Shown piece by piece: positions 27,712-33,783 of a stretch of DNA of 64,000 nucleotides; the stretch's first letter is position 1, and the number at the start of each line of letters is the position of its first letter. Source of the stretch: Leadbetterella sp. (GTDB taxonomy: Bacteria > Bacteroidota > Bacteroidia > Cytophagales > Spirosomataceae). Where the stretch lies: NCBI GenBank assembly GCA_019638185.1, contig JAHBUH010000007.1, forward strand, positions 62,001-126,000, in the 5' to 3' direction. The notes beneath the pieces were generated by a model. That model searched no databases. It was given only the letters and a program-made list of their open reading frames with translations, and was not told where the DNA came from. A program made the position numbers and the translations under genes.

Positions 27712-28098
27712 CTACTTGGACAATTGATTAATACAAATATCTATTTCTTCAATCAGCGTATCCAGGAAATCTCTGAGATTTACCGTCTCCACTGATCCTT
27801 TTTCTTCAATATCGGTTACAATTTTAACAAAATTATTTCGTATTTTAAAGTTTTCGGGGACTAAAATACTTTGTTCGCTCAGGCGCGCTTCCTGCTCTGC
27901 TATCTTTTCCTTCAGCAGTTTTTGGCTCTGGGTAAGGCGGTCTATCCGGTTCCGGTAATTGGAAATATCATATTTCAAGCCTTCTATCTCCGCCTTCTGG
28001 CTTCTCACCTGGCTCTTTAAAAGCAAAAACTGCCCCTGTACTTCCTCAAACTTGGAAAGTAAAAAGCCGTTCTCTTTTAAAAAGTCTTCACTCTGCAT
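27712..28098 (-). CDS. Coiled-coil protein, possible division-associated factor
   Basis: 128 residues. Residues about 10-85 are strongly predicted coiled coil by heptad pattern (FLLLKSQVRSQKAEIEGLKYD, LTQSQKLLKEKIAEQEARL), followed by a short helical tail with DFLDTLIEEIDICINQL. It has no signal peptide. Its position between pheT (one-base overlap) and zapA suggests a ZapB-like role with ZapA, but this is inference from context; sequence alone only supports a cytoplasmic coiled-coil protein. Confidence 0.7.
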   Translation of the reverse strand: MQSEDFLKENGFLLSKFEEVQGQFLLLKSQVRSQKAEIEGLKYDISNYRNRIDRLTQSQKLLKEKIAEQEARLSEQSILVPENFKIRNNFVKIVTDIEEKGSVETVNLRDFLDTLIEEIDICINQLSK

Positions 28099-30521
28099 TA
28101 CTTCCGGATTATAGCCCCTGCTTCCTTCTCAAAAACATCCATCAGCCGCTGCATCGTCTTATCGATTTGCTGATCATTCAGCGTCTTCTCCGTGTCCTGG
28201 AGAATAAAACTCACCGAATACGACTTCCTGTCACTCTCCAGCTTATCGCCTTTGTACACATCAAAGATATTGACATGCTTCAGCAGCTTCTTCTCCGTCT
28301 GGTACGCCAGCCGGCGGATGGTCTCAAACTGTACCTCATCCGGTAGTACCAATGATAAATCCCGCCTTACTTCCGGGTATTTCGGAATTTCCACATATTT
28401 AAAATCGGGTGAATACAACTGAAGCAGCAGATCCCAGTCGAACTCCGCATAATACGCCACCTGCTTCATATCGGCCTTTTTCAGCAGGTCCGCACTTACC
28501 AGCCCGAACCGCACCAGCACCTTATTACGCACCAGGTAATCCAGACCATAGCCCAGGAAAGGCGCCACGGTCTCATTATTCTCCGTTAGTCCCGTTTTCA
28601 TCAGGCTCAGCACCTGGTGCACCGCCTGGTGAATGTGCCGGTAGCCGGTGTTATCCGATTTCTCCGCCCATGACTCCGCCGAGGTCTTCCCCGTCAGCAG
28701 CAGGCTCAGCACCTTACGTTCTTTCACTTTCGTGCGGCCCTCCTGGTTAACCGTACGCGCGTACACCCGCCCGAACTCAAACAACTTCAGGTCACGGTTC
28801 CGGCGGTTAATGTTATACACCGCGGTATTCAGGGCCGAGAAAAGCAGCGACTGCCGCATCTCCGAAAGCTCCTCGCTCAGCGGGTTCAGCAGCTTCACGG
28901 CCGTTTCCGGGTTACCGGCCCACTCGTTTTCCTTAGGACTCACGATAGACAGGCTCTGAATCTCGTTAAAACCCCGCGCCGCCAGCGCTTCCGATACCCG
29001 CACCCGTAAAGACTCTTCCTCCTTCACCGGGAAATCCGACAGGAAATCAGAACGCAGGTTCTCCGACAGCTCCACGTTATCAAAACCGTAAATCCGGAGA
29101 ATTTCCTCCACAATATCCGCTTCCCGCGTTACATCCACCCGGTAAGGCGGCACCGAAACCTTCAGAATACCGTTTTCCAAGCCCGTCACCTGAATATCCA
29201 GGCTGGCCAGGATAGACGTGATCTTCTCTTCTCCCAGCTCCTTCCCGATCAGCCGGTCAATATTCCGGATCTTCACCTCAAACGCAAAATCAGCTACCGG
29301 CGCAGGATAATGATCAAAAATCCGGTCTACCGGCGTACCCCCAGCCAGCTCCTGTACCAGCAGGGCCGCAAAACGAATGGCAAAAGGCGGCATGTTCGGG
29401 TCCGTGCCTCTTTCGTAACGGAAGGAGGCATCGGTTTTCAATCCGAAATGCGATGAAGTCCGGCGGATATGCGCCGGGTCAAAATACGCTACTTCCAGGA
29501 AGATATTCCGGGTGGATTCTTTTACGCCGGAAACATTTCCGCCGAATACCCCCGCTATGGCCATGGGCCCTTCAGCATCACAGATGGCCAGGTCATTCCC
29601 CGTAAATTTACGCTTCTGGCCGTCCAGGGTCTCCAGCTCGGTGCCCTGGGCCGGTTTCTTCACCACCACCCGGCTACCCCGGATCTCATCAGCATCAAAA
29701 ATATGCATGGGCTGACCCAGGAAATGACACACGTAATTCGTGATGTCTACTATATTATTGATGGGATTCATGCCCAGTGTTCTCAGGAAGGTCTTCAGCC
29801 ATTCCGGTGACTCCTTCACCTCCACACCGCGGATTTCCAGCCCGCAGAAGCGCGGACAGGCATCCGTAGCCTCCACACTCAGGTCTATGGTGGCTTTTTC
29901 CGTCCCTAAAGCGAAACCGCTTACCTCCGGCGGGCTCAGCGGCAGGCCCGTCACCGCTTTAATGTCCCGGGCCACCCCGTAATGCGAAGCCGCATCGGCC
30001 CGGTTAGGCGTCAGCCCGATTTCGAACACATAGTCCGCTTCCAGGTTAAAATATTTGGAAACCGGCGTACCTAAGGCCAGCTCCGTATCCAGGATCAGCA
30101 GGCCCGCATGCGATTTCCCCAGGCCTATTTCATCTTCGGCACACAGCATGCCGTTCGATACCGCCCCCCGGATCTTTGATTTTTTAATGGTAAAAGGTTC
30201 GCCTTCCACCGGGTAAAGTGTGGTGCCCGGCTGGGCCACGATCACCTTTTGCCCCACTTCCACATTCGGTGCACCGCAGACAATATCCAGCAGTTCCTCA
30301 CCGCCCACATCTACCGTGGTCACCTTAAGCTTATCGGCATCGGGATGCTTCTCACAAGTGACTACCCGGCCAATCACCAGGCCCTCCAGCCCGCCTTTCA
30401 CGGCCTCCACCTTCTCTATTCCTTCCACTTCCAAACCCGTAGAAGTCAGTAAAACACCCAGTTCCTCCGGGGTGTGTGTAAAATCGACGAACTTCTTCAG
30501 GTTTTTGTACGAAATCTTCAT
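28098..30521 (-). CDS. pheT: Phenylalanyl-tRNA synthetase beta subunit
   Basis: 807 residues, full length. In order: tRNA-binding OB domain (about 40-150, VVTCEKHPDADKLKVTTVDVG), B3/B4 editing region (about 210-390, with RYERGTDP), B5 domain (about 400-475, RIYGFDNVE), the catalytic-like core, and the C-terminal anticodon-binding FDX-ACB domain (YPEVRRDLSLVLPDEV). It pairs with PheS, which is not in the window. The gene is preceded by a structured leader (30543-30631) and a promoter element at 30658-30665. Confidence 0.98.
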   Translation of the reverse strand: MKISYKNLKKFVDFTHTPEELGVLLTSTGLEVEGIEKVEAVKGGLEGLVIGRVVTCEKHPDADKLKVTTVDVGGEELLDIVCGAPNVEVGQKVIVAQPGTTLYPVEGEPFTIKKSKIRGAVSNGMLCAEDEIGLGKSHAGLLILDTELALGTPVSKYFNLEADYVFEIGLTPNRADAASHYGVARDIKAVTGLPLSPPEVSGFALGTEKATIDLSVEATDACPRFCGLEIRGVEVKESPEWLKTFLRTLGMNPINNIVDITNYVCHFLGQPMHIFDADEIRGSRVVVKKPAQGTELETLDGQKRKFTGNDLAICDAEGPMAIAGVFGGNVSGVKESTRNIFLEVAYFDPAHIRRTSSHFGLKTDASFRYERGTDPNMPPFAIRFAALLVQELAGGTPVDRIFDHYPAPVADFAFEVKIRNIDRLIGKELGEEKITSILASLDIQVTGLENGILKVSVPPYRVDVTREADIVEEILRIYGFDNVELSENLRSDFLSDFPVKEEESLRVRVSEALAARGFNEIQSLSIVSPKENEWAGNPETAVKLLNPLSEELSEMRQSLLFSALNTAVYNINRRNRDLKLFEFGRVYARTVNQEGRTKVKERKVLSLLLTGKTSAESWAEKSDNTGYRHIHQAVHQVLSLMKTGLTENNETVAPFLGYGLDYLVRNKVLVRFGLVSADLLKKADMKQVAYYAEFDWDLLLQLYSPDFKYVEIPKYPEVRRDLSLVLPDEVQFETIRRLAYQTEKKLLKHVNIFDVYKGDKLESDRKSYSVSFILQDTEKTLNDQQIDKTMQRLMDVFEKEAGAIIRK

Positions 30522-30731: not shown

Positions 30732-31928
30732 CTAATATAAAAATCCAAACAGCCACAGCGGCACCTTTCTCCCGAACCCCTGTTCAATATCATCGGCTGC
30801 AACGAGGTAATTATCCGCCTCTTTCACCTGCCGGCTGGTCTTGTTCTTTCCGCCTGCTTCAATATACGTGTCTCCCGTCAGGAAATCCCCCTTTTCCGGT
30901 AATTTTACCGTATGCCCGGCGTTTACCAGCTGATTCAGCAGAAAGGTCTCCCGTAACGAGCCCCTGTCCGGGTTATCCCGCAGGGCATAGGCCAGGTTTG
31001 TATTCTCAAAATACACCTTATCCGGCTTCTGCAGCACGGAAACGCCTTTGCCCTCCGTATTCAGTAAATTCAGAATCCGGGCATTCTCCAGGTGGGAGAA
31101 CCAGTCGTAAACCGAATCCCGGTTCACCTCCAGCTTACGGGCCAGGTCCGAAATATTAGGTTTGTAAGGTACTATCTCCGCCAGTACACCCAGCAGCTTC
31201 TTGATCTTAAACGTAGCCGCCTGGCTGTAATTTTCAATCATCGCCAGGTCAGATTCCAATACGGCATTAATCACCTGGGCCAGCCGCAAAGGGATATCCT
31301 CCGGACTGCTTTCCGTAATAACCGGCAGATAACCGTACCGGAGGTACTCCCGGAAAGCCGGAAGCGGCCGTAGCTTTTTATTCACCTCCATCACCAGGTC
31401 ATGCGGATTCTTCAGCAGGTCATCCCACGCCAGGCGCGGAAAACGGATACCCCTCTGTAAACCCAGAAACTCCCGGAACGAAAGCCCCGGCAGCTCATAC
31501 GTGATCACCCGCCGGCTCAGGTCAGCCTCACCGTTATAAATATGAAGCGCCGATGACGAGGAAAAAACCACCCGGAGATCCGGGTAGCCGTCATAAATGT
31601 TCTTCAGTTCCCGGGACCAGTTCGGGTATTTATGCACTTCATCTATAAAGAGGTAACGGCCCCCGTACTTATAAAACATATCGGCCGTTTCCACCAGGTT
31701 ATGGCTATAAAACCAATAATGATCCGCCGTAACATATAAAACCTGCTCCCGGGGTTTCTTCAGCCGGTACTTGATGTACTGGATCATCAGGGTGGTCTTC
31801 CCTGACCCCCTCGGCCCCTTTATGGCCAGCATCCGCTGGTTCCAACGGATCTTATCCAATAAAAAACGGGAAAAGGAATCATCTATGCTCCGGGAGATAT
31901 TGTCATAATATTCATACAGCTTTTCCAT
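30732..31928 (-). CDS. AAA ATPase with DUF4143 domain
   Basis: 398 residues. Walker A GPRGSGKTTLMIQYI (about residue 38), Walker B LFIDEVHKYPNW (about 95), sensor-type VVFSSSSALHI, then SRRVITYELPGLSFREFL, and a C-terminal DUF4143 winged-helix/nuclease-like half (SDLARKLEVNRDSVYDWFSHLENARIL, DKVYFENTNLAYAL). These ATPases are very common in Bacteroidota and archaea; their function is unknown. Directly upstream is a set of regularly spaced palindromes (31948-32086). Both ends are intact. Confidence 0.9.
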   Translation of the reverse strand: MEKLYEYYDNISRSIDDSFSRFLLDKIRWNQRMLAIKGPRGSGKTTLMIQYIKYRLKKPREQVLYVTADHYWFYSHNLVETADMFYKYGGRYLFIDEVHKYPNWSRELKNIYDGYPDLRVVFSSSSALHIYNGEADLSRRVITYELPGLSFREFLGLQRGIRFPRLAWDDLLKNPHDLVMEVNKKLRPLPAFREYLRYGYLPVITESSPEDIPLRLAQVINAVLESDLAMIENYSQAATFKIKKLLGVLAEIVPYKPNISDLARKLEVNRDSVYDWFSHLENARILNLLNTEGKGVSVLQKPDKVYFENTNLAYALRDNPDRGSLRETFLLNQLVNAGHTVKLPEKGDFLTGDTYIEAGGKNKTSRQVKEADNYLVAADDIEQGFGRKVPLWLFGFLY

Positions 31929-31947
31929 AATTCTGACTCAATTCACA

Positions 31948-32086
31948 TACAAAAATAATACAATTTCGTATCTATTTATATACAAAATAAATACCATTTT
32001 GTATAATCTAACACACAAATATACTATATTTTGTATATTCTTACATACAAAATTATAGTCATTTTGTATATTTTTACATACAAAAT
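31948..32086. repeat. Array of 23-bp palindromes with 32-33 bp period
   Basis: Four 23-bp imperfect to near-perfect palindromes with arms TACAAAAT / ATTTTGTA start at 31948, 31981, 32013 and 32046, and a fifth half-site (TACAAAAT) starts at 32079. Spacers between them are 9-10 bases and also partly conserved (ending TTACA in two). The period of 32-33 bp is about three helical turns, so all sites face the same side of the DNA. It fills the gap between the start of the DUF4143 ATPase gene and the blaI promoter and is AT-rich. It looks like a cooperative multi-operator or iteron cluster. Confidence 0.85.
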
Positions 32087-32115
32087 AAGTATGTCAAATA
32101 AAATCCCTGCCTTTC

Positions 32116-32159
32116 TTTGTATTGTTACGAAAAAATCGTAGTTTTACGAAAAAATAGTA
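32116..32159 (+). promoter_or_regulatory. blaI promoter with two operator-like sites
   Basis: TTTG (32116-32119) and TAGTTTTA (32139-32146) are separated by 19 bases. Two 15-bp sites overlap it: TACGA-AAAAA-TCGTA (32126-32140, perfect) and TACGA-AAAAA-TAGTA (32145-32159, one mismatch), centred 19 bp apart. BlaI/MecI proteins bind paired palindromes of this type and repress their own operon. Because the -33 element overlaps the TTG at 32117, translation must begin downstream of it. Confidence 0.65.
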
Positions 32160-32164
32160 AACGC

Positions 32165-32518
32165 TTGGAGAAACTAACGGCACAGGAAGAAGAAGCCATG
32201 CGGGCCATTTGGAAGCTGGAAGGCGGGTTTGTGAAGGATATCCTGGATGAAATGACCTCGGATATGCCTTACACCACCCTGGCCTCCACCATCAAAAACC
32301 TGGAGAAAAAAGGCTACGTAAGCCATGAACGGCACGCCAATGCCAACAAATACATCCCCCGGATTTCACAAACCGACTACAAACGGAGCTTCATGAGTGG
32401 CTTTGTGGGCGAGTATTTCGGGAATTCCTATAAAGAAATGGTAAGCTTCTTTGCGGAAGAGCAAAAGCTAAAACCCGAAGAACTGGAAGAAATACTGAAG
32501 ATAATTAATAAGAAATGA
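32165..32518 (+). CDS. BlaI/MecI/CopY family repressor
   Basis: About 117 residues from a TTG at 32165 (MEKLTAQEEEAMRAIWKLEG). Winged helix-turn-helix with FVKDILDEMTSDMPYTTLASTIKNLEKKGYVSHE, and a C-terminal dimerisation helix region. No ATG is available before residue 29 of the extended frame; an upstream TTG at 32117 would overlap the promoter. The gene overlaps the M56 peptidase gene by four bases. In the BlaI-BlaR1 scheme the membrane peptidase inactivates the repressor upon a signal; in Bacteroidota the trigger is usually not a beta-lactam. Confidence 0.88.
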   Translation: MEKLTAQEEEAMRAIWKLEGGFVKDILDEMTSDMPYTTLASTIKNLEKKGYVSHERHANANKYIPRISQTDYKRSFMSGFVGEYFGNSYKEMVSFFAEEQKLKPEELEEILKIINKK

Positions 32519-33783
32519 ACTCATTCTGGATCACTCTCCTCGAAATTAACCTCGTCCTGAGTATCGTTTACGCAGGATACCTGGTTTTTCTTAAGAACCT
32601 GACCTTTTTCAGGTGGACCCGCCTCTACCTCCTGGGCGGGATGATGCTGGGGCTGGTTTACCCCTTCCTGAAAACGCAGCAGGTGGTACATCCGCCGGCC
32701 GAAGGCGTGAACATCATTATTCCTGACATTGCGAAAGCAGCCCAAACCCCGGCCTTCGATTACAGCCAGGGAGCCGTTTACCTCATTTCTGCCATCTTCC
32801 TGCTGCTCTTCCTGAGGTTTCTCACCCGCTTCTTCAGCCTCGGGAAAATCCACCTGGCCTCCGATAAGGCCGAATTTAACGGCCGGAAATTCCGGAATAC
32901 CCGGAAGCAGCTAAACCCTTTTTCCTTCTGGAAATGGATTTATATTCACCGGAACTCTCATTCTGATTTTGAGATGAGGCAGATCATGACGCATGAGCAC
33001 ATCCATACCCGGGAGCGCCACACCTTTGACGTGCTGGTAGCGGAGATATGCACCATCATCTGCTGGTATAACCCCGTAGTGAAACTACTCTCCAAAGCCG
33101 TGAAAGATAACCTTGAGTTCCTGGTGGATGCGGAAGTACTCCACTCCGGGATCGACAGGATCTCCTACCAGCACAGCCTGGTGGGCATTTCCCTCAGCGG
33201 GTTCCCTCAGCCCCGCCACGGAAACCAGTTTGCATTTAAAACCTTAAAAAAACGAATACGTATGATGAACAAAGAACAATCGTCAAAATTCCGTCTCACC
33301 TCCTATCTGCTGCTTACGCCGCTGGTGCTGGGGTCTGCCGCCCTGCTCACCTTCTCCTGCCAGAAAGAAAGCGTAGACATTATAACCAAAGCACAGAAAA
33401 ACGAAGAGATAGCCCTGGTAGAGCCCGCTAACGCCTCTGCTAAAATAGCAGCTACCCAGGGGGCCGTCAAGGGGCTTATCATCACCAAACCCGTTACACC
33501 CGAGGAATATTTCAGAGCAGAAAAAAGCGGGGATACCGTGGCTATCGATATCCCCGGAAATCACTCCGTCACTCTCAGGGGAACCCCCACTTTACAGGAT
33601 TTACTCGTGATTTTAGATGGCACACCCATAGATTCAGAGAAAATTAATAGTATAGACCCCAAAACTATAGAATCTATTACCGTTCTTAAAGATGCGTCTG
33701 CAAGAGCCCTCTACGGGGAGAAGGCGAAAAACGGGGTGATCCTGATTACTACCAAAACAGGGAAAGCCGGTTCTCGACAATAA
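32515..33783 (+). CDS. BlaR1-like M56 membrane peptidase with TonB-plug-like C-terminus
   Basis: 422 residues. Four membrane helices (about 5-25, 32-52, 82-102, 262-282) with the M56 zinc site HEHIH (motif HExxH) near residue 160 and a following conserved RERHTFDVL stretch. After the last helix the periplasmic tail lacks any penicillin-binding domain; instead the last 75 residues (DLLVILDGTPI, IDPKTIESITVLKDASARALYGEKAKNGVILITT) match the plug of SusC/TonB-dependent receptors. The tail probably makes or senses contact with outer-membrane receptors or TonB. Coupled to blaI by an ATGA overlap. Confidence 0.88.
   Translation: MNSFWITLLEINLVLSIVYAGYLVFLKNLTFFRWTRLYLLGGMMLGLVYPFLKTQQVVHPPAEGVNIIIPDIAKAAQTPAFDYSQGAVYLISAIFLLLFLRFLTRFFSLGKIHLASDKAEFNGRKFRNTRKQLNPFSFWKWIYIHRNSHSDFEMRQIMTHEHIHTRERHTFDVLVAEICTIICWYNPVVKLLSKAVKDNLEFLVDAEVLHSGIDRISYQHSLVGISLSGFPQPRHGNQFAFKTLKKRIRMMNKEQSSKFRLTSYLLLTPLVLGSAALLTFSCQKESVDIITKAQKNEEIALVEPANASAKIAATQGAVKGLIITKPVTPEEYFRAEKSGDTVAIDIPGNHSVTLRGTPTLQDLLVILDGTPIDSEKINSIDPKTIESITVLKDASARALYGEKAKNGVILITTKTGKAGSRQ

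Follow-up and report, generated by a model that had tools for sequence, protein, structure and literature searches.

Within the window, i.e., the complete stretch of 64,000 nucleotides of Leadbetterella sp. DNA analyzed in this study, a regular array of operator-like palindromes (31948–32086) is located between an ATPase gene (30732–31928, minus strand) and a gene encoding a BlaI-type repressor (32165–32518, plus strand, likely TTG start). This arrangement raises the question of which gene the array belongs to and which protein reads it.

Repeat Array and ATPase Gene in the Window

The array consists of two perfect palindromes, two imperfect ones and one half-site, arranged with a period of 32–33 bp. 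Its half-sites TACAAAAT / ATTTTGTA occur without mismatch at 31981, 31996, 32028, 32046, 32061 and 32079, and with one mismatch as TACAAAAA at 31948 and ATTTCGTA at 31963. Palindromes 2 (31981–32003) and 4 (32046–32068), which were recovered by the half-site search as well as by a pattern search of the genome, possess perfect arms. Palindrome 1 (31948–31970), proximal to the ATPase gene, is imperfect, and palindrome 3 (32013–32035) combines a perfect right arm with a badly degraded left arm, for which no half-site match was found even at two mismatches. A half-site identified by the same search (32079–32086) closes the array. An earlier note on this DNA had described four 23-bp palindromes plus a half-site, which is correct as to the existence and location of the array.

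The spacings of 33, 32, 33 and 33 bp given there are reproduced by the left arms, which start at 31948, 31981, ~32013, 32046 and 32079 (33, ~32, ~33 and 33 bp), and the right arms, starting at 31963, 31996, 32028 and 32061, follow at 33, 32 and 33 bp. Furthermore, the best direct-repeat shift of the array is 33 with a score of 18.0, exceeding all 300 shuffles (maximum 11.7), and eight half-sites with at most one mismatch were counted within 31929–32130, compared to 1.55 on average and never more than 6 in 1000 dinucleotide shuffles. The array adjoins the ATG of the ATPase gene (31926–31928, minus strand) at a distance of 19 bases. Within the source genome, TACAAAAT-N7-ATTTTGTA without mismatch was found at two places, both in the array, and at up to three mismatches 50 places were obtained vs. 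49 for the reversed control pattern. A genome-wide regulon of the motif was considered and rejected, since none was seen and perfect matches are confined to the array. The motif of one paralogue is likewise perfect only within its own array (three places).

The encoded ATPase comprises 398 amino acids and features an AAA_14 domain (104.8 bits; Pfam cut-off 27) and a DUF4143 domain scoring just below the Pfam threshold (27.7 vs. 28.1 bits). DUF4143, which we take to be equivalent to COG1373, matches all 40 members of family alignment A3 at E-values up to 0.5. Moreover, residues 26–343 match the PADLOC PDC-S01 models with an E-value of 3.3e-30, as judged without the PADLOC cut-off, and three tested homologues also match these models. 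PMC12988326 describes PDC-S01, a phage-defence candidate of PADLOC, as an ATPase carrying a fused PD-(D/E)XK-type domain, ranks it fourth in frequency among prokaryotic defences, with 29,494 cases in bacteria and 9,986 in archaea, and states that most candidates of this kind still await validation. According to PMC13356809, PDC-S01 was also the most frequent individual locus in the rumen genomes of that study. Residues D348, E357, K363 and Q367 are invariant in the ten sequences of alignment A1; the canonical E-x-K of PD-(D/E)XK nucleases was not seen in the window ATPase.

A winged helix-turn-helix (HTH) is predicted for residues ~236–295 (31044–31223, minus strand) based on weak HTH model matches at ~236–294 in three of four homologues, on matches of HTH_11, HTH_36 and HTH_24 to 11, 7 and 7 of 40 family members, respectively (E up to 0.5), and on the co-variation reported below. 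The AlphaFold model of the ATPase is poor (mean pLDDT 41). Among solved structures, the window ATPase matches P-loop stretches only, and the family profile matches the ATPase portion of the archaeal structures 2fna and 2qen and of ORC4.

Affiliation of the Array with the Neighboring Genes

The location of the array between the ATPase gene and blaI would also fit a BlaI operator serving the adjacent blaI-blaR-like pair, and the BlaI box of staphylococci is similar to the TACA/TGTA core of the half-sites. Downstream of blaI, a gene for a BlaR1-type M56 peptidase follows (32515–33783, plus strand), the product of which ends in a C-terminal segment resembling a TonB plug and a SusC signature and looks like an unusual fusion. 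Two separate BlaI-type sites, TACGAAAAAATCGTA (32126–32140, plus strand) and TACGAAAAAATAGTA (32145–32159, plus strand), were identified outside the array. The earlier note did not set these sites apart from the array.

Ownership of the array was deduced from a same-genus genome represented by one contig (G073), which harbors a blaI orthologue 78% identical to that of the window. Alignment of the corresponding locus (L206) to the window covers blaI, parts of the blaI neighbor and the start of an 807-aa gene (28098–30521), presumably pheT. The ~220 bp between the aligned parts contain neither the ATPase gene nor the TACAAAAT array, but two TACGA-type palindromes matching the BlaI-type TACGA/TCGTA sites at 32126–32159. 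In G073, no match to the window ATPase was obtained at E-values up to 0.001; one other AAA_14 member is present. Since L206 lacks the ATPase and the array and carries the BlaI-type sites, the array is missing jointly with the ATPase, while blaI retains its own sites. Hence, at this one locus providing the empty-site evidence, the array goes with the ATPase and not with blaI, as the earlier note had presumed, and conservation of the array with blaI only, named there as the outcome that would speak against its claim, was not observed. BlaI/MecI operators thus adjoin the array in the window, but they differ from it in their letters, form no 33-bp array and persist where the ATPase is absent. Moreover, no blaI was encountered among the features listed beside the eight array-bearing plasmid and viral loci described below. 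BlaI ownership was rejected on the basis of L206 and is highly improbable.

Spacing and Letters of the Arrays across the ATPase Family

Upstream regions of homologues at ~40–60% identity often contain inverted repeats at ~33 bp, the letters of which differ from those in the window, and paralogues from the window's own genome show the same ~33-bp pattern with other letters (five of seven among the clear arrays). Conservation of the TACAAAAT motif across the family was therefore rejected, and a search for the TACAAAAT palindrome before other DUF4143 genes, as had been recommended, would have little success, given that each protein or subfamily uses letters of its own. The shared feature is a 32–33-bp lattice, occupied in the window clade mostly by a TTG-anchored palindrome.

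As letters differ between homologues, spacing was tested instead of sequence. In total, 146 non-redundant AAA_14/DUF4143 upstream regions, representing a subset of the matches found with low-identity matches of the window ATPase left out, were scored for their best ungapped self-match against 100 dinucleotide shuffles; one locus with a Walker A motif located too far inside (L148) and subsequently seven redundant regions of 153 had been removed. The control comprised 164 genes from 20 stretches of 16 of the same genomes plus the window. The repeat exceeded all 100 shuffles in 73 of 146 ATPase upstream regions compared to 10 of 164 control genes, and 73 of the 146 showed no significant direct repeat by this strict test. 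The best shift fell into the 32–35 bin in 49 of the 73 significant ATPase upstream regions (listed shifts of 32, 33 and, once, 34) and in none of the ten significant controls, which supports the earlier suggestion that a period near three helical turns is meaningful. On a lattice of 22–23, 32–34, 64–67 and 98–100 bp, defined after the shifts had been seen, 63 of 73 ATPase upstream regions and one of ten controls were located. Some arrays, a minority, follow a period of 22–23 bp (two turns), in part with about seven tandem copies (L084, L097, L006, L299 and others).

Identical scoring was applied to 83 new loci of the window clade (E-values up to 1e-50 with the window protein), which were collected after the first set; five of 88 regions had been left out (L309, short; L270, no usable Walker A; three redundant). 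Among these loci, 38 were significant, with 25 at shifts of 32–34, one at 23 and four at 64–66 (30/38 on the lattice). Furthermore, when palindromes recurring at multiples of 32/33 bp were sought automatically, 89 of 122 window-clade regions were positive, compared to 2, 3 and 2 of 122 in three shuffles and 3 of 164 among the control genes. Twenty loci from plasmids and viral contigs, hand-picked from homologue listings, were also analyzed. Eight of them beat all shuffles, all at 32–33 or 64–66 bp, and originate from Methanosphaera, Treponema saccharophilum, Glaesserella, Collinsella, Fusobacterium, Acinetobacter, Criblamydia and Bacteroides, seven of the eight thus being from outside Bacteroidota. 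Twelve of the 20 failed the strict test; ten of the 20 showed nothing, and in L186 and L190 one of 100 shuffles reached the score, at shifts of 33 and 32, respectively.

Downstream flanks of the ATPase genes were significant in 11 of 140 cases, five of them on the lattice, including two arrays of a following ATPase gene and two further copies of the gene's own array. Six of the 11 were inspected: among the five at shifts of 30–37, L115 and L116 represent the array of the next ATPase gene, L138 and L139 contain the gene's own motif again and L121 features an unrelated GC-rich repeat, and the flank of L163, with a shift of 98, contains a tandem repeat unrelated to the arrays. In the orthologous loci L138 and L139, a second array with two copies of the same TGACC...GGTCA motif directly follows the ATPase gene, the copies of L138 being positioned at 1798 and 1830 of the ATPase strand, so that the gene is flanked by matching arrays. 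A function in recombination or as a second promoter is conceivable for these paired arrays.

ATPases with a DUF234 domain, a related family, were found in three of 148 Bacteroidota genomes, which is too few to judge. In L226 and L227, short repeats were observed near the start codon of DUF234 ATPase genes, e.g., ACTCCAGAGTATAAT / ACTCTCGAGTATAAT in L226, hinting, from three loci seen, that this family may also use private operators.

In order to relate motifs to proteins, 77 loci with clear arrays (2926 pairs) were compared. Of the 146 family loci, 69 were kept (score reached by at most one of 100 shuffles, shift near the lattice) and ten of the 20 plasmid and viral loci were added by the same kind of criterion; L048 and L110 were removed by hand since their best repeat was not array-like. 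Motif similarity correlated with ATPase identity (Mantel r 0.517), a value reached by none of 2000 permutations (maximum 0.09). It was near the random level below 35% identity, and the fraction of pairs scoring at least 10 rose to 0.09 at 35–50%, 0.24 at 50–60%, 0.41 at 60–80% and 1.00 above 80% identity, where it may simply reflect recently shared DNA. Same-genome paralogues below 35% identity shared their motif in none of 85 pairs; at 35–80% identity, one of 22 same-genome pairs shared it vs. 0.126 of 428 different-genome pairs, numbers too small for claiming avoidance. In one subfamily, a ACACTTTTTC / GAAAAAGTGT-like motif is common to Bacteroidota, Acinetobacter, Collinsella and Glaesserella at 35–53% protein identity. 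Cross-phylum pairs scoring at least 9 amounted to 18, of which 12 belong to this subfamily and six connect distant proteins (17–21% identity), indicating that chance matches occur. The Bacteroidota draft genome G171 (L055, L105–L120) encodes 17 AAA_14 members, some of them in tandem (contigs C41 and C81); nine of the 17 are among the clear arrays.

Residue-Base Co-Variation and Putative Autoregulation

The window-clade half-site mostly consists of TTG followed by variable bases, and 68 of the 89 motifs could be anchored at TTG; the remaining 21 were left out of the co-variation set, as were pairs with at least 80% identity. All residue-base tests refer to one clade, the window's own. Controlling for the rest of the protein, identity of the HTH helices (259–284) predicted the variable bases with the highest value of the segments tested (partial r 0.223, p 0.001; 68 loci). 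In the same loci, segment 156–235 was also positive (partial r 0.121, p 0.001) and P175, located outside the HTH, was the top single column. As this test is confounded by ancestry, a tree was built without residues 236–300 and protein columns (n = 346) were scored for changes on the same branches as each base, evaluated against 2000 branch-length-weighted simulations. Residue 274 was the best of the 346 columns for base +1 (p 8e-7; reached in 5/2000 simulations) and residue 269 for base +3 (p 2.4e-6 and 3.3e-6 in two runs; 24/2000). For base +2, no column was significant in the branch test (best D211; 718/2000), and base +4, considered without simulation, showed no HTH signal. In a table blind to ancestry, residue 272 sorts base +2: T coincides with T in 28 of 33 loci, and S, N or K with A in 19 of 23.

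When changes were pooled over the four bases, Y274 ranked first, followed by D318 and R159, both outside the HTH, and N269 ranked fifth. Among the segments tested, only 259–284 and its sub-segment 262–280 were clearly enriched (MWU p 0.0008 and 0.0023; 0.059 for 285–300). Of 2000 simulations per base, 2 for base +1, 33 for base +2 and 0 for base +3 attained the excess of 259–284. An earlier scan of 24 loci had yielded a partial r of 0.22 (p 0.009) for residues 236–295 and nothing for the recognition helix alone, and a partial Mantel scan across the whole family gave no localization to the HTH helix; compared to these scans, the set analyzed later contained more loci and had been delimited by an automatic procedure. 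Two array bases therefore change together with the recognition-helix residues 274 and 269, and a recognition code is predicted at these residues and, less surely, at 272. The window's own N269 (31122–31124), S272 (31113–31115) and Y274 (31107–31109; all minus strand), located in the predicted winged helix, agree with the residue-base tables, as does its TTG-TAT.

Regarding gene expression, TAnnTTTG represents the −7 element of Bacteroidota, and a candidate, TATTTTTG (31950–31957, minus strand), is located 29 bp before the ATPase ATG inside palindrome 1, with two further matches farther up the array. Among 62 array-bearing loci with an ATG following the array, 38 contain TAnnTTTG within their final 100 bp, compared to 7.2 expected from shuffles. 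These candidates are located at a median of 27 bp before the ATG (quartiles 26–29) and overlap the best repeat copy in 17 of the 38 loci. The array sites accordingly overlap the gene's own candidate promoter. The distance between array end and start codon has a median of 30 bp and stays within 60 bp in 62 of 67 cases, although it is biased towards small values because the first in-frame start codon after the array was used.

Based on these results, the array probably represents an operator through which the ATPase gene is autoregulated, with the gene product binding to it via its winged helix. Binding by an unlinked host transcription factor could be supposed instead, given that many window-clade motifs share a TTG/CAA skeleton that is possibly a promoter feature. 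Such a factor is very unlikely in view of the differing letters of distant paralogues within one genome, the letters common to several phyla within one subfamily and the joint changes of letters and residues within the ATPase. It is likewise improbable, albeit slightly less so, that the ATPase uses the array as a replication origin, iteron set, centromere or mobile-element end and that promoter control is secondary. Iteron-like repeats beside an AAA+/winged-helix protein, the joint absence of ATPase and array from the syntenic locus, plasmid homologues (38 and 62 records in two listings) and the two orthologous loci with arrays on both sides would agree with it. The 17 family members in one draft genome argue against it, as do the position of the arrays close to the start codon, often covering or adjoining the −7 box at a fixed distance, and the low number of significant downstream flanks, with L138 and L139 being the only two of the six inspected in which the array of the gene itself recurs. 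Their second, partial array remains unexplained by a plain promoter operator. Finally, each palindromic unit could form a stem and act as an RNA hairpin in the 5' leader, but most units of the window are located upstream of the candidate −7 element and hence would not be transcribed from it, and 37 of 77 repeat segments lack significant dyad symmetry by a simple test, making hairpins highly improbable.

For the autoregulatory operator, the following mechanism is proposed. The winged helix (residues ~236–295, recognition helix from ~269) would read the half-sites, i.e., TTG plus the variable bases, and two ATPase subunits would bind one palindrome. As palindromes are spaced by 32–33 bp, or three turns, on one helix face, neighboring dimers could stack cooperatively. 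Since the promoter-proximal palindrome covers the −7 element, binding should repress transcription of the ATPase's own gene, and the array-bound protein would thereby shut its promoter. We infer physical binding, cooperativity, repression rather than activation and release from repression by a trigger such as phage infection; silencing of a candidate defence gene by the protein it encodes, lasting until a trigger arrives, would be consistent with this. With each family member having its own address, paralogues within one genome would stay insulated. The claim that the array links the ATPase to sequence-specific DNA binding or self-regulation is supported in part, at the level of sequence comparison, by the family lattice, the empty site and the base-residue co-change.

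Rep proteins and Orc1/Cdc6 with its ORB boxes are known iteron and initiator systems, the latter being AAA+ proteins with a winged helix. They resemble the present case in placing a winged-helix protein beside phased repeats and, for Orc1/Cdc6, in the combination with an AAA+ domain, but here the repeats lie on the promoter of a many-copy gene and nothing indicates replication. Autoregulated toxin-antitoxin and repABC loci with locus-specific operators (cf. PMC4492784) also act copy by copy on their own promoter via a private operator, which insulates paralogues. Unlike these, the putative regulator considered here is a single-gene AAA+ protein with several sites on a 22- or 33-bp lattice. For PDC-S01, the models of which are matched by the window ATPase and three homologues, the accessible part of PMC12988326 mentions no DNA operators, arrays or autoregulation, and a private promoter array is added by this study.

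The earlier note had named no previous description of the array, and no description of such arrays was found in the literature searched, which mostly excluded subscription papers and included some partial result lists; the link of the ATPase family to PDC-S01 had escaped the earlier reader. Autoregulatory operators are of a known kind. As far as our searches show, a scheme in which a whole family of AAA+ defence candidates keeps the spacing, uses private letters and allows protein residues to be matched to bases is undescribed. Fixed-sequence motif searches miss such regulation because mainly the spacing is conserved.

As a tentative extension, which we consider possible rather than likely, the arrays may represent assembly platforms: phased, cooperative AAA+ assembly on the own promoter lattice (33 or 22 bp) would silence the gene and store the effector, infection or ATP state would release it, and the winged-helix code would let addresses diverge, allowing up to 17 systems per genome without crosstalk. 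If true, one of the most widespread candidate defence genes would possess a self-addressing scheme extending across the family and across domains. Considered as a whole, the arrays suggest that a very common and unexplained family of suspected anti-virus genes regulates itself, and they provide the PDC-S01 family with a molecular handle in the form of a predicted DNA target for each protein, a putative recognition code and a candidate promoter switch.
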